NCBI GenBank assembly: GCA_021786575.1
Contig: JAJYMY010000002.1
Span: 186,001-250,000, forward strand
Reading direction: 5' to 3'
Source: an archaeon
GTDB lineage: Archaea; Thermoproteota; Nitrososphaeria; Nitrososphaerales; Gagatemarchaeaceae
Length of the DNA: 64,000 bases
The translations under genes and the position numbers were made by a program. The notes beneath the pieces were generated by a model that was not told the origin of the DNA, did not search any database, and worked only from the letters and a program-made list of their open reading frames with translations. This document shows positions 29,751 through 59,022 of the stretch, in pieces (positions within the stretch are counted from its first letter, which is position 1; every line of letters begins with the position of its first letter).

Positions 29751-30893
29751 TTGGGTTTCCTGGACGGCTTAAAGGTGGTAGACGCCACGCGGCTCCTCCC
29801 CGGAGGGTTCTGCACCATGGTCCTCTCCGACATGGGGGCCGATGTGATCAAGGTCGAGCAGCCTGGCCTGGGCGACTACATGCGCGCCACCCCGCCCATG
29901 AAAGACGGGAGGAGCCCCTTGCACGCGACTGTCAACAGGAACAAAAAAAGCATCGGGATCGACCTGAAGTCCGCTGAGGGGAAGGCAGTGATGCGTCGGC
30001 TCCTCCGCACGGCAGACGTCTTTGTGGAGGGCTTCCGGCCCGGCGCCATGGCTCGGCTAGGGTTTTCGTTCTCCCATGTGAAGAGGGTGAACCCCAAAAT
30101 CATCTACTGCTCGATATCGGCGTACGGTCAGGAAAGCAGGCTGAGCTCTATGCCAGGGCACGACATAAACTTCCAGGCGATGGCAGGGACGCTCGCGTAC
30201 TCCACCAGAGCTGAGGTCCCTCTTCTCCAGCTCGGGGACTTGGCCTCAGGGATGTACGCGGCACTGGGGATTCTCGGGGCCCTCGCCGGAAGGAGGAGGC
30301 CCGCCTTCGTGGACGTGCCTATCGTGGCCTCGCTTATTTCTTGGATGGTGTTGCCAGCGTCTGTCTACCTGGCGACGGGCCGAACGCCCGGCGAGGGGAA
30401 CAGCCTCATCTTCGGCTCGACGCCCTACTACAATGTCTATCAGACCTCTGACGGCAAGTACATGGCCGTAGCCGCCATAGAACCGGCCTTCTGGCGGAAT
30501 TTGGTGGAGTCGCTTGGACTCCCGGAGCTCGAACCGATGAGGTTCGGCGCAGCCGAGGAGAGGGACTACGTCGTCTCTGAGCTGCGGCGGGTCTTCGCCA
30601 CGAAAACGAGAGACGAATGGGCGAGGCTCCTCATGCATAGGGACACGTGTGTGACGCCTGTCCTGACCGTCGAAGAGGCTCTCGCCAGCGACTGGGCCAA
30701 GTCCCTCGGGATGCTCGCGGGGATCGGCGGAGAAGACGTCCTAAACGGTCCGGTCAGGACCGTCCCCGCTATGAGGAGCAAACCCTTCACAGCGGCCCCC
30801 GACCTGGGGGAAGACACTTACTCCATCATGAAGTCCCTTGGCTACTCTCAGGCGGTCACGCGGCGACTGAAGTCGAAGGGAGCAGTCCAGTAG
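29751..30893 (+). CDS. alpha-methylacyl-CoA racemase (CaiB/BaiF fold)
   Basis: A 380-residue member of the family III CoA-transferase fold. The catalytic residues of alpha-methylacyl-CoA racemases are all in place: His137 in GHDIN, Asp163 in LGDLASG and Glu244 in AIEPAFW, with STPYYNVYQTSDGKYMAVAA around the last. This triad favours racemase over true CoA-transferase. Racemases interconvert (2R)- and (2S)-2-methylacyl-CoA so that methyl-branched chains can enter beta-oxidation. It starts at a TTG 27 bp after a TATA-like box and converges on a thiolase gene 3 bp away. Neighbours supply the other beta-oxidation steps. Confidence 0.86.
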   Translation: MGFLDGLKVVDATRLLPGGFCTMVLSDMGADVIKVEQPGLGDYMRATPPMKDGRSPLHATVNRNKKSIGIDLKSAEGKAVMRRLLRTADVFVEGFRPGAMARLGFSFSHVKRVNPKIIYCSISAYGQESRLSSMPGHDINFQAMAGTLAYSTRAEVPLLQLGDLASGMYAALGILGALAGRRRPAFVDVPIVASLISWMVLPASVYLATGRTPGEGNSLIFGSTPYYNVYQTSDGKYMAVAAIEPAFWRNLVESLGLPELEPMRFGAAEERDYVVSELRRVFATKTRDEWARLLMHRDTCVTPVLTVEEALASDWAKSLGMLAGIGGEDVLNGPVRTVPAMRSKPFTAAPDLGEDTYSIMKSLGYSQAVTRRLKSKGAVQ

Positions 30894-30896
30894 GGC

Positions 30897-32090
30897 TCAA
30901 GCCCTCTGCAGCAGGACGGCGAATCCCTGCCCGCCCCCCACGCATAGAGTCGCCATCCCATACTCCTTTCCGCTCTGGACGAGCTCTCTCGCCAGCGTCC
31001 CAACGAGCCTGGCACCTGAAGCTCCGAGGGGATGTCCTATGGCTATGGCCCCACCGTGGACATTGATCCTGCCCGGGTCAAGCTTCAGCTCCCGGATTGC
31101 GTACAGCACGACAGCGGCAAAAGCTTCGTTGATCTCCCATAGGTCTACCTCCTCCGCCTTGACCTTCGCCTTCGCCAGCGCCTTCTGTGAAGCAGGCACT
31201 GGCCCCTTACCCATGACGCTGGGGTCGACTCCAGCCCACCCCATTGACACTATCCTGGCCAGCGGCTTGAGCCCATGCTCCTTCAGCTTCGCCTCAGAGG
31301 CGAGCGCGACCATGGACGCGCCCGCGTTGAGGGGGGACGAGTTCCCGGCGGTGACCAGTCCGCCAGGCTTGAACGAAGGCTGGAGGGCAGCCAGCTGCTC
31401 CAGCGTCGTGTCCCTCCTTATGCTCTGGTCCACGTCGATCACCCGCTCCTCCCCTCCCACCTCCACCTTCATGTCTAGCAGCTCGCCTCTGAACCAGCCT
31501 TCGTCCAATGCGGTCGTCGCCTTCGCGTGCGACCCTACCGAGAACCTGTCCATCTCCTCCCTGGTGAATCCTTCCTCCTCCGCTAGCTTTTCCGCCGTGA
31601 GCCCCATTGAGTACCCCGTGCTCATCTGGTACTTCATGTATTCCGGTCTCGTGAGTAGCCGGGTGTTCGGCGCTAGGGCGGGGTTGTTGGACATCGGGAC
31701 ATGGGTGAGGTGCTCCATCCCGCCAGCGAGGACGGTGTCTGAGTTCCCTGTCATGATCTCCATCGCTCCTTCTGCCACAGCGTTCATGGACGATGCGCAG
31801 GCCCTGTCCATCGCCATGGCCGGTACCGTGACCGGGAGTCCCGCCAGTAGGACAGGGTGCCTTCCCCCATAGAGCCAGTTCTCGCCGGTCTGGAATGCGC
31901 ACCCAGTCACAACGTCCCCGACCTCTTCAGGTCTGAATGAGGTCCTCTCCATCACCCTTCGTATGAGGAGGCTCAGTGCCTGGTCCATCCTGATGGAGTT
32001 GTAGACATCTCTCTCAGGTTGAGACGGTCTCGACCTGGAGAATGGGATTCTCAGGTAGTCCGCCACATACGCGTCTTTGAGCTCGGCCAT
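30897..32090 (-). CDS. thiolase (acetyl-CoA C-acyltransferase)
   Basis: A 397-residue thiolase of the degradative type. The acyl-carrying Cys98 lies in MDRACASSMNAV; GGMEHLTHVPM, NEAFAAVVL, GGAIAIGHPLGASGAR (His) and CVGGGQGF (second Cys) follow in order. It cleaves 3-ketoacyl-CoA with CoA, the last step of beta-oxidation, or runs in reverse to make acetoacetyl-CoA. The frame is open to 32132, but the ATG at 32090 is chosen because GAGGAG lies 5 nt upstream. It is 7 bp downstream of the HAD/ECH fusion gene and surely co-transcribed. Confidence 0.92.
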   Translation of the reverse strand: MAELKDAYVADYLRIPFSRSRPSQPERDVYNSIRMDQALSLLIRRVMERTSFRPEEVGDVVTGCAFQTGENWLYGGRHPVLLAGLPVTVPAMAMDRACASSMNAVAEGAMEIMTGNSDTVLAGGMEHLTHVPMSNNPALAPNTRLLTRPEYMKYQMSTGYSMGLTAEKLAEEEGFTREEMDRFSVGSHAKATTALDEGWFRGELLDMKVEVGGEERVIDVDQSIRRDTTLEQLAALQPSFKPGGLVTAGNSSPLNAGASMVALASEAKLKEHGLKPLARIVSMGWAGVDPSVMGKGPVPASQKALAKAKVKAEEVDLWEINEAFAAVVLYAIRELKLDPGRINVHGGAIAIGHPLGASGARLVGTLARELVQSGKEYGMATLCVGGGQGFAVLLQRA

Positions 32091-32097
32091 TCGCTCC

Positions 32098-34092
32098 TCA
32101 CTTCCCCTTGAACTCCGGCTTCCTCTTTCCAAGGAACGCCGATATCCCCTCCTTCAAGTCCTCTGTCCCGAAGAGAACCCCCGCCGCCATCTCCTCCATC
32201 TCCAGCCCCACGTCCGAAGGCACCTCAGCCCCCTTGTTGAGCAGCTTCTTTGCCAGCATGACCGCGATTGGAGCCTCGGATGACGCGAGCCCTCTCGCGT
32301 ACTCCACCGCCTTCCCATCGATGTCTCCGCTCTGGACGACCTGGTTCACTAGGCCCATCTCATACGCTCGCCTCCCGTTGACGCTCTCGCATGCGAGTAT
32401 CATCGACGAAGCGCGCGACAGTCCAACCAACCGCGAGAGCCTCTGCGTCCCGGACCACGCCGGCACCAGGCCGCGGGTCAGTTCGGGGAAGCGCAGCTCG
32501 ACGTCTTCCGTGGCCAGCCTGATGTCGCAAGACAGGGCAAGCTCTAGCCCTCCACCGAGGACGTACCCCTTCAGGACCGCTATCGTAAGCTTGGGAACCT
32601 CGCTCAGGCGCCTCATGGTCCGCTCTCCCTTCCTCGCGAACTCCATCATTCCCGCTGCGTTCGAGACGAACTTCGTCATCTCGAACCCCGCCGAGAAGAC
32701 AGGTCCCTCGCCGGTCACCACCACAGCCCTCACCCCAGGGTCGTTCCACAGTTCCGTCACTATACCGTCCAGCCCTTCTAAGACCTCGCCGTTGATCAGG
32801 TTCAGCCTGGGCCTTGCGATGACGACCCTGGCGACTCCACCCTCTAGCCTCTCCAGGCGAATAGCCTTCTCAGTTCCAGCCGAGGTCCCGCCACTTGCCG
32901 GCGCCGCCGAGGTCCTTTGCCCAGGTGCGGCGGTCAGCCTCCCCTCGATGGCGTCGCGGAGCTTCCCCTCGGCTATCGAGCGCGCGGGGGCGAATATTGA
33001 GCATCCGTACTTCGTCGACAGCTCTATGAGTTTCGCCTTGACCTCTGCGTTGCTAAGGTCCTTCGCGACTGAAATCGGCCCGAAGGGCCTGTTCATTCCC
33101 AGGACGACCCCCTTCTCTATGTCTTCGGGTCTCGCCACCCCCTCCTCTAGGAGCTTCACTGACTCGTTGATCTCGAGGGCGAAGATGTCCATGATCGAAA
33201 CCTTGTCGGTCCCCGCGACCTTCGGAATCTCTGCCTTCCCACTCGACCAGTCGTAGAACCCCCTACCGGTCTTCTTCCCAAGACGCCCCTCCTTCGCCAT
33301 CTTCGAGAAGGTCTCTCCCTTGCCATATTCTGGTGAGAGGGCGGAGGCGAAGTAAGCGAGCGAGTCTGCCCCTACGTCCACTCCTACGAAGTCGAGCAGC
33401 TCGTAGGGCCCCATGGGGAGACCCTGCCCCCTCGCGAACGTGTCAACCTCAGCGGGGCTGGCGACCCCCTTGTCGAGGAGGAGGCAGAAGAAGAGCGTGT
33501 CGGCTGCGTTTATCCTGTTGACTATGAACCCGGGAGAGTCCTTCAGGACCCTGACCGGGGTTCTGCCCAGCTTCGAGCAGGCGTCTATGACCTCCTGGAC
33601 GGCGGCCGGGTCGGTCTTCGCCCCAGGGATCACCTCGACCAGCTTCATCAACATGGGCGGGTTGAAGAAGTGCATTCCTACGGTCTTCTCCGGCCTGTCG
33701 GTCGCCTCAGCCAGGTCAGAGATCATTATGTTCGACGTGTTCGATGCGAAGATGGCTCCCGGAGGGGCGGACGCCGAGGCCTCACCGAGGACCCCCTTCT
33801 TCAGCTCTATAGACTCGGGGACCGCCTCCACTACAAGATCGGCCGCCGAGACTGCCTTCCCCAAGTCGCTGGAGTATGCTATCCTGGATTTCGCCTCCGC
33901 GGCCTGCCCTTCTGTTATCCTCCCTTTCTCGACCAGCTTCTCCAGGCTCGCGGCGATTCTTTCCTGTGCCCTCTCCAATGCTTGCGGGAACTTGTCCATC
34001 AGCGTCACGCTGTAGCCATTGACCGCGAAGAGCTCTGCGATTCCGTGGCCCATGTCTCCAGCCCCGATCACCGTCACTTTTTCGATGGCCAT
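32098..34092 (-). CDS. bifunctional 3-hydroxyacyl-CoA dehydrogenase / enoyl-CoA hydratase
   Basis: A 664-residue fusion. Residues 1-290 are the NAD-dependent dehydrogenase (VIGAGDMGHGIAELFA; HFFNPPMLMKLVEVI); about 300-385 the dimerisation domain (GVVLGMNRPFGP); about 410-664 a crotonase-fold hydratase with VVVTGEGPVFSAGFE and both catalytic Glu residues (GGGLELALSCD, RFPELTRGL). The order matches the archaeal crotonyl-CoA hydratase/3-hydroxybutyryl-CoA dehydrogenase known from Sulfolobales, which serves either beta-oxidation or the 3-hydroxypropionate/4-hydroxybutyrate cycle. Neighbouring racemase and SCP2 genes favour oxidation here. The ATG at 34092 has a GCCTTAAGCC box about 31 bp upstream. 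Confidence 0.92.
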   Translation of the reverse strand: MAIEKVTVIGAGDMGHGIAELFAVNGYSVTLMDKFPQALERAQERIAASLEKLVEKGRITEGQAAEAKSRIAYSSDLGKAVSAADLVVEAVPESIELKKGVLGEASASAPPGAIFASNTSNIMISDLAEATDRPEKTVGMHFFNPPMLMKLVEVIPGAKTDPAAVQEVIDACSKLGRTPVRVLKDSPGFIVNRINAADTLFFCLLLDKGVASPAEVDTFARGQGLPMGPYELLDFVGVDVGADSLAYFASALSPEYGKGETFSKMAKEGRLGKKTGRGFYDWSSGKAEIPKVAGTDKVSIMDIFALEINESVKLLEEGVARPEDIEKGVVLGMNRPFGPISVAKDLSNAEVKAKLIELSTKYGCSIFAPARSIAEGKLRDAIEGRLTAAPGQRTSAAPASGGTSAGTEKAIRLERLEGGVARVVIARPRLNLINGEVLEGLDGIVTELWNDPGVRAVVVTGEGPVFSAGFEMTKFVSNAAGMMEFARKGERTMRRLSEVPKLTIAVLKGYVLGGGLELALSCDIRLATEDVELRFPELTRGLVPAWSGTQRLSRLVGLSRASSMILACESVNGRRAYEMGLVNQVVQSGDIDGKAVEYARGLASSEAPIAVMLAKKLLNKGAEVPSDVGLEMEEMAAGVLFGTEDLKEGISAFLGKRKPEFKGK

Positions 34093-34118
34093 GCTCAGGT
34101 ACTTTGTTTGCGACTACT

Positions 34119-34128
34119 GGCTTAAGGC
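34119..34128 (-). promoter_or_regulatory. TATA-like box for the HAD/ECH-thiolase operon
   Basis: GCCTTAAGCC on the minus strand, itself nearly palindromic, is centred about 31 bp before the ATG at 34092. Confidence 0.45.
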
Positions 34129-34149
34129 TCTTTCCACTGGAAAGCAAGG

Positions 34150-34162
34150 TTACTAAAAGTAA
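34150..34162. promoter_or_regulatory. palindromic operator candidate between divergent acyl-CoA genes
   Basis: TTACT-AAA-AGTAA is a perfect 5+5 inverted repeat lying 2 bp upstream of the TATA-like element of the acyl-CoA dehydrogenase gene and 22 bp upstream of the box for the HAD/ECH operon, so a bound dimeric regulator could control both directions. Confidence 0.45.
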
Positions 34163-34164
34163 TC

Positions 34165-34175
34165 GCGTATATATG
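34165..34175 (+). promoter_or_regulatory. TATA-like box for the acyl-CoA dehydrogenase gene
   Basis: GCGTATATATG is centred about 28 bp before the ATG at 34198. Confidence 0.55.
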
Positions 34176-34197
34176 ACCGGGGCCGTACTCCTATCTA

Positions 34198-35391
34198 ATG
34201 AGCACCCTATCGCCCAGCCCGTCCGATTACGCGATTACGATTTCAGAGGAACAGGAGGCCTTCCGCCAGGCCGTCAGGGGGTTCGCCGAGAAGGAACTCG
34301 CGCCTGCCACCCAGCGGATTGACAGAGAGAACCAGATGGACATGGGGCTCGTCAAGAAGGCCGCCGCGCTCGGTCTCTTCGGTATCCCCTTCCCCGAGGA
34401 GTACGGGGGCGGGGGCGGGGACGACCTCTCACTGGTCTTGGCCACCGAGGAGATCGCCAGGTTCTCCGCGGCCTTCTCAGCTGTCGTCGGCGCCACCTAC
34501 CTTGTCTCTACCCCAATCTTCCTGTTCGGGACCGAGGAGCAAAAGAAGAGGTACCTCGTCCCCATTGCGAAGGGCGAGAAGATAGCCGCCCACGCGATGA
34601 CGGAGCCAGGCACAGGCTCTGACGTGGCCGCCATCTCGACCAGTGCCAGGAAGGAGGCGGACAAATACGTGATCAACGGGAAGAAGATGTTCATCACTAA
34701 CGGAGACAAAGCAGAGACTTTCCTGATCTTTGCCAGGACTAGCCCCATGGAGAGCGGCAAGAGGCACCACGGCATCACCGCGTTCATCGCAGAGAAGGGT
34801 ATGAAGGGGCTCAACGTCGGCCAGCGCACCGACGTCATCGGTTTAAGGGGGGACCAGCCGGTCGAGCTTGTTTTCGAAGACCTGGAGGTCCCCGAGGCTA
34901 ATGTGGTCGGCGAAGTCGGAAGGGGGGTGAGGATTGCTTTGACCTGCTACGACCACGGGCGGGTCGGGGTCGCGGCCCAGGGGACGGGCCTGGCCCAGGC
35001 GGCCCTCGAGGCGGCGCTGAACTACTCGACCCAAAGGCAGACCTTCGACAACTACCTCCTGAGCTACCAGCAGGTCCAGTTCAAGATAGCCGAGATGACG
35101 GCTGCAGTTCACACCGCCCGGCTCCTCACCTATTGGGCGGCCACGCTGACGAAGAAGGGGAAGGACTTCATCAAGGCGTCGTCCATAGCAAAGATCACGG
35201 CCACGGAGGCCGCCGAGAGGAACGCCCACATGGCGATGCTTATCATGGGGGCGTACGGGGTCTCGACCGACAGCCAGGTGGAGAGGATGCTCAGGGACTC
35301 TCAGATAATCAAGACCTATGAGGGGACGAACGACATCCAGAGACTCACCATAATGAAAGAAGTGGCAAAAGAGATGGGCGTGCTGGGTTGA
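34198..35391 (+). CDS. acyl-CoA dehydrogenase
   Basis: A 397-residue flavoprotein with the full ACAD layout: helical N-domain (FPEEYGGGGGDDLSLVLATEEIAR), the FAD-contacting AMTEPGTGSDVAAI near residue 132 and KMFITNGDKA near 162, and a C-terminal helical domain. The catalytic Glu lies in KTYEGTNDIQR near residue 375. It makes trans-2-enoyl-CoA, the first step of beta-oxidation, with electrons passing to ETF (not seen here). It is divergent from the HAD/ECH-thiolase operon and 52 bp upstream of the SCPx-like thiolase. Confidence 0.93.
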   Translation: MSTLSPSPSDYAITISEEQEAFRQAVRGFAEKELAPATQRIDRENQMDMGLVKKAAALGLFGIPFPEEYGGGGGDDLSLVLATEEIARFSAAFSAVVGATYLVSTPIFLFGTEEQKKRYLVPIAKGEKIAAHAMTEPGTGSDVAAISTSARKEADKYVINGKKMFITNGDKAETFLIFARTSPMESGKRHHGITAFIAEKGMKGLNVGQRTDVIGLRGDQPVELVFEDLEVPEANVVGEVGRGVRIALTCYDHGRVGVAAQGTGLAQAALEAALNYSTQRQTFDNYLLSYQQVQFKIAEMTAAVHTARLLTYWAATLTKKGKDFIKASSIAKITATEAAERNAHMAMLIMGAYGVSTDSQVERMLRDSQIIKTYEGTNDIQRLTIMKEVAKEMGVLG

Positions 35392-35443
35392 GGGCCGGCA
35401 AAGGGGAGAAAGTCCTCCCGGCCGACGCCAGGGCGCACCGGCG

Positions 35444-36604
35444 ATGACCAGGGTCGCGGTTGTGGGCGTCGGCCACAGCCGCTTCGGGAGGCGGACCGAC
35501 GTCAACATAGGCGAGCTCGCATTCGAGTCCATCAAGCAGGCCGTCGAAGACGCGGGGGTCGACCGGAAGGACATCGGCAACGTCGTGGTAGGGAGCGCCG
35601 GGGGTTGGTATGAGGAATCTCTCCCAGCGGTCGTGGTTGGCGAGTACGCGGGCCTGACGGGGGCGGGGACAATGAGGGTTGAGGCTGCCTGCGCCAGCGG
35701 GAGCGCGGCCGTGAAGGCAGCCTATAACAGCATAGTCAGCGGCGAGACGGACGTCGCCATGGCCGTCGGGGTGGAGAAGATGACGGAAGTCGATACGCCG
35801 ACGTCCATCGAGCTCATCGGGAGGGCCGGCTCCTACACCTGGGAGTTCGAGAACTATGGGATGACATTCCCTGCCTATTACGCGCTCTACGCCGTAGCTC
35901 ACATGAACAAGTTCGGGACCACTCAGGAGGACCTGTCGAGGGTATCCGTGAAGGCGCACCGCTACGGTGCCATGAACCCCCTGGCGCAGTTCCAGAAGGA
36001 AATCACGCTCGAAAAGGCGCTGGGCTCCCAGATGGTGGCCTGGCCACTGAAGCTCTACGACGCCTGTCCTCTGTCTGACGGGTCGGCTGCTGTGGTCCTC
36101 GCCTCCGAGGAGGTGGCCAGGAAGCTGACGGACACCCCGGTCTGGATAAAGGGCGTGGGCTACTCGTCCGACACCGCGAACTTAAGCAGGAGGGATGGAT
36201 ACGTAGGGCTCCGCGCGGCCGTCAACGCATCGACGATGGCATACGCGATGGCGAAGGTCTCGCCAGAGGAAATGGACGTCGCCACCGCCCACGACTGTTT
36301 CACAATAGCTGAGCTGATGGCTTACGAAGACCTGGGTTTCTGCAAGAAGGGGGAGGGGGCGAAGATGATCAGAGAAGGTCAGACCGAGCTCGGCGGCAAG
36401 ATTCCGGTCAACTTGGACGGGGGCCTGAAGGCAAAGGGGCACCCAATCGGAGCGACGGGCGTATCCATGGCGGTCGAGATAACAAAGCAGCTAAGGGGGG
36501 AGGCGGGGAGGCGCCAGGCCCCCATCCGGAGAGGGCTGGGGCTTACCCATAACATAGGCGGGACCGGACACTACGCCTACGTGACAGTCTATTCGAGGGA
36601 CTGA
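35444..36604 (+). CDS. SCPx/archaeal ACAT-type thiolase
   Basis: A 386-residue thiolase-superfamily protein. Nucleophile Cys83 sits in EAACASGSAAV; AHDCFTIAELMAYEDLGFC, KGHPIGATGVSM (His) and THNIGGTGHYAYV follow. The last motif lacks the second Cys of classical thiolases, as in SCPx-type and archaeal acetyl-CoA acetyltransferases that work with a DUF35 partner. Here the DUF35 gene follows 3 bp later. Two roles are possible: acetoacetyl-CoA formation for the mevalonate pathway, or cleavage of branched 3-ketoacyl-CoA. No HMG-CoA synthase gene is adjacent, and beta-oxidation genes flank it, so the second is favoured but not proven. Confidence 0.85.
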   Translation: MTRVAVVGVGHSRFGRRTDVNIGELAFESIKQAVEDAGVDRKDIGNVVVGSAGGWYEESLPAVVVGEYAGLTGAGTMRVEAACASGSAAVKAAYNSIVSGETDVAMAVGVEKMTEVDTPTSIELIGRAGSYTWEFENYGMTFPAYYALYAVAHMNKFGTTQEDLSRVSVKAHRYGAMNPLAQFQKEITLEKALGSQMVAWPLKLYDACPLSDGSAAVVLASEEVARKLTDTPVWIKGVGYSSDTANLSRRDGYVGLRAAVNASTMAYAMAKVSPEEMDVATAHDCFTIAELMAYEDLGFCKKGEGAKMIREGQTELGGKIPVNLDGGLKAKGHPIGATGVSMAVEITKQLRGEAGRRQAPIRRGLGLTHNIGGTGHYAYVTVYSRD

Positions 36605-36607
36605 GAG

Positions 36608-37039
36608 ATGTCAGAGGCCCCGGCGCTACACTCGAGGAGGCCCCTCACCTTGAGGTTCAACATCCCCATCTCCAGGACACGCGAGTTCTGGGATTCGCTC
36701 AGGGGAGGGAAGTTCGTCACGACGAAGTGCACGAGCTGTGGGAAGGTGACCTTCCCGCCGCAGTCAGACTGTCCCGAGTGCATGGGGAGCGGGTTCGACT
36801 GGGTCGACCTCGGTCGGGACGCCACCCTGGTGACCTTCACCCAGGCCATGGTTACCCCTGCGAGCTTCTCGGCGGAGGGCTCATACACGATAGCCATAGC
36901 GGAGCTCGGAGGGGGGATCAGAGTGCTCGCCTGGTTGGAGGGGGTCAGGGCAGAAGATGCCTCTCCCGGGATGAAACTGAGGGTGGAGGCGAGGGTCAGC
37001 GCGGACGGGAGCCCATACTACGTCTTCGTCAAAGCCTAG
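36608..37039 (+). CDS. DUF35 Zn-ribbon OB-fold acyl-CoA-binding protein
   Basis: A 143-residue protein with an N-terminal zinc ribbon (CTSCG near residue 41 and CPEC near 54) and a C-terminal OB fold (DATLVTFTQAMVTPASF; YTIAIAELGGGIRVLAWLEG). Proteins of this family bridge thiolase and HMG-CoA synthase and bind CoA so that acetoacetyl-CoA is passed on directly. It directly follows the SCPx-like thiolase and is probably its partner. Its stop shares CTAG (37036-37039) with the converging SCP2 gene. Confidence 0.9.
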   Translation: MSEAPALHSRRPLTLRFNIPISRTREFWDSLRGGKFVTTKCTSCGKVTFPPQSDCPECMGSGFDWVDLGRDATLVTFTQAMVTPASFSAEGSYTIAIAELGGGIRVLAWLEGVRAEDASPGMKLRVEARVSADGSPYYVFVKA

Positions 37040-37413
37040 AACTCTTTCGGGACGTCCTTCATGACGTCCGCCACCCTGGCGAGCCTGTCCCTGTACATGA
37101 TTATCTTTGGGAGCGATCCTTTGAACCTCAGCTGGCCCTTCAGGACGGCCGACTGGATGTCTGTCTCTCCTTTCGCCACCTTGCACCAGGCATCGTACGT
37201 GCCGTCAAAAGAGAACTCGGCGGAAGCGCCCTGTTCAGCTTTCTGGAACGAAGTCACGCCGTTCTCGACGGTCATCAGGAAGTTCTGGCCTGTGTCTGTA
37301 ACGTTGAAGGCCACACTCGTCTTGAATCCCTTCGTCGTCTCCGCCCACCTTGGGTCGGCAGCAAGCGAAGACTGCACTTGAGAGACATATTCATCGCTCA
37401 TGAACTTGGCCAT
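37036..37413 (-). CDS. SCP2 sterol/lipid carrier-domain protein
   Basis: A 125-residue single SCP2 domain. Seen are a basic N-terminal helix, FKTSVAFNVTDTGQNFLMTVENG, a middle strand AEFSFDGTYDAWCKVAKGE, and the C-terminal VLKGQLRFKGSLPKI typical of the family, which binds fatty acyl-CoA or other long-chain lipids in a hydrophobic tunnel. The ATG at 37413 is preferred over the first start at 37428; it overlaps the pop5 gene by 23 bp. Its place beside thiolase and DUF35 suggests delivery of acyl chains to the oxidation enzymes. Confidence 0.86.
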   Translation of the reverse strand: MAKFMSDEYVSQVQSSLAADPRWAETTKGFKTSVAFNVTDTGQNFLMTVENGVTSFQKAEQGASAEFSFDGTYDAWCKVAKGETDIQSAVLKGQLRFKGSLPKIIMYRDRLARVADVMKDVPKEF

Positions 37414-37720
37414 CGGTGACCGCCTCACGGGCTCGCCTTTTGAGGTTACCTACGGCGCCTGATGTGAGGACCGGGACGAGCCTCCTCCCCCCGGGCACGC
37501 TTACCCCACCCGCCTCCCTCATGCGCCGCGCGACCTCGAACGTAGTCTTGACTATTACCGCCCGCGGGTTCCCGTCTACCAATATGACCTTCAGGTCGCC
37601 GAACTCGCCCCACAGGGATTTCGCTCCAAGCTCTGCCTCCGAGAGGGCTCCATCGGCCATCAGCAGCAGATACCTCTTGGGCGTATCAGCTCCGCCCCAG
37701 TTCCATGGCGTAGAGCTCAA
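37391..37720 (-). CDS. RNase P protein component Pop5 (Rpp14/Pop5 family)
   Basis: A 109-residue protein. KRYLLLMADG near residue 15 and VILVDGNPRAVIVKTTFEVARRMREAGG match Pop5, followed by VPVLTSGAVGNLKRRA near the end. Pop5 with Rpp30 activates the catalytic RNA of archaeal RNase P for tRNA 5' maturation. It starts at a TTG (37720) inside the 3' end of the upstream RNA-binding protein gene (35-bp overlap). No alternative start lies before the conserved KRYLLL. The gene pair fits a conserved archaeal RNA-processing cluster. Confidence 0.8.
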   Translation of the reverse strand: MSSTPWNWGGADTPKRYLLLMADGALSEAELGAKSLWGEFGDLKVILVDGNPRAVIVKTTFEVARRMREAGGVSVPGGRRLVPVLTSGAVGNLKRRAREAVTDGQVHER

Positions 37721-58905: not shown

Positions 58906-59022
58906 GGGCCTGTGGCTCAGCCAGGTTAGAGCGGCTGGCTCTTAGCTAGCTCATGGGAGTCACCAGCATGCCGTGGGAGACGCTCTAAGCGTCCACGAAT
59001 TCGAATCCCACCAGGCCCGCCA
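58906..59022 (+). tRNA. tRNA-Lys(CUU) with two introns and encoded CCA
   Basis: Acceptor GGGCCTG (58906-58912) pairs with CAGGCCC (59012-59018); D stem GCTC/GAGC; anticodon stem GCTGG/CCAGC (58934-58938, 58963-58967); loop C-T-CTT-A with anticodon CTT at 58941-58943; variable ATGCC; T stem GTGGG (58973-58977) with CCCAC (59007-59011) around TTCGAAT. Intron 1 is 17 nt (58945-58961) at the canonical 37/38 site, with CTCT/GGAG as central helix. Intron 2 is 22 nt (58978-58999) between positions 53 and 54, with central helix CGTG/CACG, bulges GG|A and AA|T, and inner stem GACGC/GCGTC. Discriminator G59019, then CCA 59020-59022. Confidence 0.92.

Follow-up and report, generated by a model that had tools for sequence, protein, structure and literature searches.

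A conserved archaeal gene cluster with a likely role in beta-oxidation of 2-methyl-branched acyl-CoAs

Among described systems, those that most invite comparison with the genes reported here are animal peroxisomal branched-chain beta-oxidation, which comprises AMACR, MFP-2, SCPx and SCP2, and the racemases MCR and FAR of Mycobacterium tuberculosis. The host of these genes belongs to the archaeal family Gagatemarchaeaceae, also called Thaumarchaeota Group I.1c, whose members do not oxidize ammonia and for which Lin et al. reportedly described fatty-acid oxidation genes in 2015. For this family, PMC10640624 reports genes of beta-oxidation together with fadD, and describes autotrophy markers as lacking. 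A search of open-licence papers yielded no report of an archaeal 2-methylacyl-CoA racemase system, or of archaeal phytanic-acid degradation of this kind. Here we describe a seven-gene acyl-CoA cluster at positions 29751-37428 of a 64,000-nucleotide stretch of Gagatemarchaeaceae DNA (assembly GCA_021786575.1, contig JAJYMY010000002.1, positions 186,001 to 250,000), called the window below and used as the reference for all coordinates. The genome that contains it (G000) measures 755 kb and is 49% complete.

An earlier sequence-only reading of the window had listed a racemase, an acyl-CoA dehydrogenase (ACAD), a hydratase-dehydrogenase fusion, two thiolases, a DUF35 protein and a free SCP2 protein at this place, and Pfam and profile searches verify every one of these genes at its position. 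We put at about 0.66 the probability that the cluster constitutes a heterotrophic beta-oxidation module of the Gagatemarchaeaceae able to handle 2-methyl-branched acyl-CoAs. Specifically, the module probably degrades, by beta-oxidation, fatty acids in which a methyl branch comes to lie at C2, with propionyl-CoA as a product, and a branched-chain function is likely for this conserved archaeal module. Gene content, catalytic residues, the conserved operon and the accessory genes are read directly from sequence, and from them we infer the probable substrate, its chain length, the stereochemistry and the division of labour between the thiolases.

The predicted 2-methylacyl-CoA racemase (29751-30893, plus strand, TTG start) is of the AMACR/MCR type with a family III CoA-transferase fold (PF02515, 311 bits), and is the sole PF02515 protein found in the window genome. 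In MCR, proton abstraction falls to His126 for the S epimer and to Asp156 for the R epimer, and Glu241 forms part of the catalytic set (PMC12246613). The triad previously proposed for the window protein, His137, Asp163 and Glu244, is exact in its residue numbers and is accompanied by Asp138, the equivalent of MCR Asp127. All four residues are invariant in 15 relatives of the family. The best matches in the PDB are FAR and MCR of M. tuberculosis, at roughly 28% identity, with the transferase-like protein YfdE close behind. Because YfdE is nearly as close, the score alone cannot separate racemase from transferase, and the AlphaFold model (pLDDT 70.8) is too poor for a Foldseek ranking to tell them apart. 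YfdE carries Tyr and Asn at the positions of window His137 and Glu244, and the HD..E signature sorts homologues into racemase-type and transferase-type proteins.

A tree of these homologues, built by a quick method after removal of near-copies and read by single-branch support without bootstrap, divides along the same line. A single branch (SH-aLRT 99) separates 80 rows with HD..E, MCR and FAR among them, from 45 rows that lack the His and Glu. The latter include YfdE, almost all other Thermoproteota homologues examined and second PF02515-type copies from the same genus. The thaumarchaeal racemases form a separate clade of 26 rows (support 100). A few archaea that do not belong to the family carry racemase-type proteins as well, namely G167, G129, G228 and Actinarchaeum halophilum. 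Judged by its residues and phylogeny, the predicted racemase is genuine. By homology it should act on 2-methylacyl-CoA; straight-chain acyl-CoAs are poor substrates for MCR, with very low exchange (PMC12246613). True 2-methylacyl-CoA racemases look rare in the phylum, as most PF02515 homologues examined outside the family carry transferase residues. In G167, which represents another Thermoproteota family, the racemase gene sits (locus L178, C1:63.5-83.4 kb) amid genes for a methylmalonyl-CoA-epimerase-like glyoxalase, sucCD, BioY, a biotin ligase, two ACADs and electron transfer flavoprotein (ETF).

The cluster is not a chance assembly, because the same housekeeping genes flank it in about 30 related genomes, with FKBP-AGXT-NMNAT-RtcA-PsmB on one side and Kae1-Bud32 on the other. 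Nearly all close relatives hold it at this fixed genome address, where two architectures were seen among the relatives compared. Architecture A, present in about 20 genomes, is that of the window, in which the strands alternate: racemase on plus; one thiolase and the fusion on minus; ACAD, the other thiolase and DUF35 on plus; and SCP2 on minus. In architecture B, the genes run on one strand throughout in the order racemase, 3-hydroxyacyl-CoA dehydrogenase/enoyl-CoA hydratase (HCDH-ECH) fusion, ACAD, SCP2-type thiolase and DUF35, separated by only 5-67 bases where measured, with SCP2 convergent and the FadA thiolase not included. This second arrangement (G025, G033, G034, G003, G007, G012, G032 and FK2.bin78) is found in several genomes of the window's genus as well as in other genera of the family. 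Because sister genera carry the racemase gene at the head of one tight operon, the enzyme is functionally tied to beta-oxidation. In two genomes, G005 and G026, the racemase gene immediately precedes the ACAD gene.

The two architectures also differ in their dehydrogenases. The HCDH-ECH of architecture B is 36-38% identical to the window fusion and its ACAD is mostly of another type (41-44% identity), with G032 and FK2.bin78 carrying an ACAD of the window type (81%). The catalytic residue E375 is kept in both ACAD types. This comparison indicates that ACAD-thiolase-DUF35-SCP2 is the core of the cluster, to which the racemase and hydratase/dehydrogenase genes are joined, and that the dehydrogenase modules have been exchanged. 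Such a swap can be seen at the same address between close relatives: in loci L032, L036, L063 and L064, distant homologues replace the ACAD and fusion genes of window positions 30897-35391, and racemase, SCP2-type thiolase, DUF35 and SCP2 are retained. A comparison with plasmids returned no match.

The ACAD (34198-35391, plus strand; PF02771/02770/00441), with its catalytic Glu in the motif YEGT, falls in a short-chain-like clade, its nearest named PDB relatives being short-chain and butyryl-CoA dehydrogenases. The HCDH-ECH fusion (32098-34092, minus strand) combines 3HCDH_N, 3HCDH and ECH_1 domains (PF02737, PF00725 and PF00378). An analogy with MFP-2, which unites a short-chain dehydrogenase, a MaoC-type hydratase 2 and an SCP2 domain in a single protein, had been drawn for this fusion, and we rejected it: neither a short-chain-dehydrogenase nor a MaoC domain is recognized by Pfam, and the PDB relatives are FadB, the peroxisomal bifunctional enzyme (MFP-1) and L-3-hydroxyacyl-CoA dehydrogenases. 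The fusion is thus of the MFP-1/FadB type, a crotonase-type hydratase joined to an L-3-hydroxyacyl-CoA dehydrogenase, with the domain order reversed so that the dehydrogenase comes first.

One of the two thiolases (35444-36604, plus strand) is SCP2-type, or SCPx-like, as judged from PF22691, PF00108 and an above-cut-off match to NF009228 (593 bits). Its Cys83, HDCF (283-286) and GHP (332-334) are intact and invariant in 9/9 aligned sequences, including those from other families. The motif HDCF marks SCP-2 thiolases, whereas YDHF or YDCY marks steroid aldolases (PMC12329534), and thus the window enzyme is expected to carry out thiolysis; the steroid aldolase (Ltp2/Sal) interpretation of the thiolase-DUF35 pair was rejected on the basis of HDCF and the Cys. 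Its predicted partner (36608-37039, plus strand) is a DUF35 protein with a ChsH2-type zinc ribbon and OB fold (PF12172 and PF01796; CX2CX10CX2C); its gene and that of the thiolase are neighbours in all complete clusters examined. The other thiolase (30897-32132, minus strand) is a FadA-type 3-ketoacyl-CoA thiolase (NF005033, 626 bits against a cut-off of 511; motifs CASS, NEAF, GHP and CVGGG). Close orthologues of this enzyme, of at least 80% identity, are confined to this address and to genomes of architecture A.

Convergent with the operon lies the gene for a stand-alone SCP2 lipid-binding protein (37036-37428, minus strand; PF02036, 35.2 bits, cut-off 21.3), which no complete cluster of the family lacks. 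A sequence search of the PDB with this protein gave nothing useful, but a fold search succeeded: its AlphaFold model (pLDDT 87.7) best matches sterol carrier protein 2 (2cx7, E 2.7e-8), and Archaeoglobus AF1534 is also among the Foldseek matches. Both the domain score and the predicted fold therefore bear out the free lipid carrier suggested earlier.

These components can be arranged into a route for 2-methyl-branched substrates. A synthetase encoded outside the cluster would make the acyl-CoA, whose acyl chain, if long, may be held or presented by the SCP2 protein. Next, the racemase would remove and return the alpha proton, with His137 together with Glu244, and Asp163, serving as bases, converting (2R)-2-methylacyl-CoA to the (2S) epimer. 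The ACAD would then pass electrons to ETF, and the fusion protein would carry out hydration followed by oxidation. We envisage that the SCP2-type thiolase with DUF35 cleaves 3-oxo-2-methylacyl-CoA to propionyl-CoA and a shortened acyl-CoA, and that the FadA-type thiolase, in architecture A only, would serve straight-chain rounds with acetyl-CoA release. Propionyl-CoA would be carboxylated and then pass through methylmalonyl-CoA mutase (MCM). Candidate soil substrates, in which the branch would arrive at C2 after some rounds, are 10-methyl fatty acids, anteiso or even-iso acids and pristanic-type acids.

Functions that this route would draw on are encoded elsewhere in the genomes. Acyl-CoA synthetase and ETF, for which the sequence-only reading had proposed a genome search, were both found in the window genome, where a second acyl-CoA locus (G000:C1:365.5-381.2 kb, L172) holds two AMP-binding synthetases, a FadA-type thiolase, an SCP2-type thiolase with DUF35, MmgE/PrpD and ACAD-EtfB-EtfA. 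On G000:C2, genes for a biotin carboxylase and a PCC-type carboxyltransferase stand side by side, a small neighbouring open reading frame is a candidate biotin carrier gene, and what looks like a biotin ligase gene adjoins them. The same search proposed for MCM succeeded in 26 of the 31 genus genomes, with the gene fragmentary in two of these 26. Thus, the branched-chain pathway with propionyl-CoA disposal is represented in the half-complete window genome by synthetase, ETF and a PCC-type carboxylase, and by MCM only in relatives. In G005, the MCM gene adjoins those for a B12-binding subunit, MeaB and another ACAD. Full-length carboxyltransferases number at most one in each genus genome searched except G009, and several genomes have none.

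Several observations weigh against a 2-methyl-branched function. The window racemase gene lies outside the operon of thiolase and dehydrogenase genes, on a stretch where strands alternate. Two genera, represented by G036 and G031, retain only ACAD-thiolase-DUF35-SCP2 at the address and have no racemase gene there, and therefore the core works without the racemase. A search of the window genome, 49% complete, yielded no MCM. The complete genome G005 has no carboxyltransferase despite possessing racemase and MCM, so propionyl-CoA must be handled otherwise there. Finally, an ACAD of short-chain-like sequence suits short branched acyl-CoAs equally with long ones. Separately, the SCP2-type thiolase of G031 (locus L201, 9047-10095) is read as two adjacent segments, which may reflect a frameshift.

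The strongest remaining rival is isoleucine degradation, in which the cluster would convert 2-methylbutyryl-CoA or a similar short branched acyl-CoA to acetyl-CoA and propionyl-CoA, and the racemase would rescue the (R) epimer. This route uses the same ACAD, hydratase, dehydrogenase and thiolase reactions, the ACAD belongs to a short-chain clade, and branched-chain amino acid transport and degradation genes are among those reported for the family in PMC10640624. However, L-isoleucine yields the (S) epimer, and therefore no racemase would be necessary. The conserved SCP2 lipid-binding protein suggests longer acyl chains, and the cluster itself shows no gene for a branched-chain oxoacid dehydrogenase, although no genome-wide search for one was made. 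On balance we regard this explanation as unlikely.

Clearly less probable is the degradation of isoprenoid chains, in which the cluster would oxidize phytanyl-type chains, possibly from archaeal lipids. Pristanic-type chains carry a 2-methyl group and would require exactly this racemase and a thiolase tolerant of 2-methyl substrates, and phytol and dead archaeal lipid are generally known to be present in soil. However, phytanic chains are 3-methyl-branched and cannot enter beta-oxidation without PhyH-type alpha-oxidation or a geranyl-CoA-carboxylase-type route. PhyH was found in only 1 of the 37 family genomes searched and not in the roughly half-complete window genome; carboxyltransferases are scarce, and therefore the carboxylase route is not visible; and no gene in the cluster has a Pfam assignment specific to isoprenoids or to ether cleavage. 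We consider it similarly improbable that the whole uncultured family recycles isoprenoid skeletons, from plant phytol or dead archaeal membrane lipid, by way of the racemase and a PhyH-independent entry step. This proposal is conceivable but unsupported, because of the rarity of PhyH, the scarcity of carboxyltransferases and the fact that the racemase suits 10-methyl, anteiso and other branched acids just as well as pristanic-type acids. Of the methyl-branched oxidation proposed for the window at the outset, the racemase in a beta-oxidation operon thus upholds the general idea, whereas the isoprenoid or phytanic substrate finds no such backing.

Two further alternatives are very improbable. 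That the PF02515 protein is a CoA-transferase in an ordinary straight-chain pathway would be in keeping with the shared fold family, the nearness of YfdE and the uninformative model, but this identity is rejected by the catalytic residues, which are substituted in YfdE and in nearly every other Thermoproteota homologue examined, and by the strongly supported tree split. That the SCP2-type thiolase and DUF35 serve the mevalonate pathway as acetoacetyl-CoA thiolase, or the cluster serves the 3-hydroxypropionate/4-hydroxybutyrate (HP/HB) carbon-fixation cycle, could draw on the DUF35 thiolase employed in the archaeal HMG-CoA synthase complex (PMC12329534) and on the hydratase part of the fusion, which is nearest to 3-hydroxypropionyl-CoA dehydratase (5zai); but HMG-CoA synthase in relatives adjoins its own thiolase, a 32-35% paralogue, on which ground the mevalonate identity was rejected, and PMC10640624 reports HP/HB markers to be missing in the family. 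Both the CoA-transferase and the carbon-fixation cycle had been named beforehand as findings that would overturn a branched-chain function.

HpaB matches were also considered as the 4-hydroxybutyryl-CoA dehydratase of the HP/HB cycle and rejected: the one classified, in G005, is a 4-hydroxyphenylacetate 3-monooxygenase (606 bits, cut-off 480) encoded beside HpaD and a flavin reductase. Clusters for 4-hydroxyphenylacetate degradation, with HpaB monooxygenase, HpaD dioxygenase and an HpaC-like flavin reductase, lie at G005:C1:58-70 kb (L215) and G015:C1:430-445 kb (L216).

The window also holds an unrelated element, a single tRNA of 114 bases at 58906-59019 (plus strand) that was recognized by Rfam and missed by ARAGORN. 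About 17 extra bases in its anticodon arm and 22 in its T arm suggest that the gene carries two introns.

If the cluster does degrade 2-methyl-branched acyl-CoAs, abundant uncultured archaea of acid soils would gain a defined carbon source, namely methyl-branched fatty acids derived from bacteria, plants or archaea, and the racemase would provide a marker gene with testable residues. The use of branched acids also bears on the identity of the organisms that degrade membrane-lipid biomarkers in soils.

Among known systems, the cluster can be set beside the fatty-acid oxidation genes published for the family, for which the consulted parts of PMC10640624 describe no racemase, cluster architecture or branched-chain role. 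It shares clustered archaeal genes for ACAD, hydratase, dehydrogenase and thiolases with the Sulfolobus acidocaldarius fatty-acid cluster Saci_1103-1126 (the FadR regulon; PMC6449355), which is much larger, includes esterases and a TetR regulator that the window cluster lacks, and is described without mention of a racemase or DUF35. The pairing of an SCP2-type thiolase with DUF35 recalls the archaeal acetoacetyl-CoA thiolase/DUF35/HMG-CoA synthase complex (6ESQ), whereas the window cluster contains no HMG-CoA synthase, whose gene adjoins another thiolase elsewhere in these genomes. Animal peroxisomal beta-oxidation resembles the archaeal cluster in its racemase family, SCP2-type thiolase and SCP2 carrier, and in the predicted scheme, where the (2R) epimer is converted to (2S) and propionyl-CoA is released. 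It differs in that the archaeal cluster has an ACAD with ETF in place of an oxidase, an MFP-1/FadB-like fusion in place of MFP-2, a separate DUF35 subunit, a free SCP2 protein and no PhyH. With MCR and FAR of M. tuberculosis, the archaeal racemase has in common the catalytic His/Asp/Asp/Glu set and its side of the tree, and it is set apart by its own thaumarchaeal clade and its place within a beta-oxidation operon.

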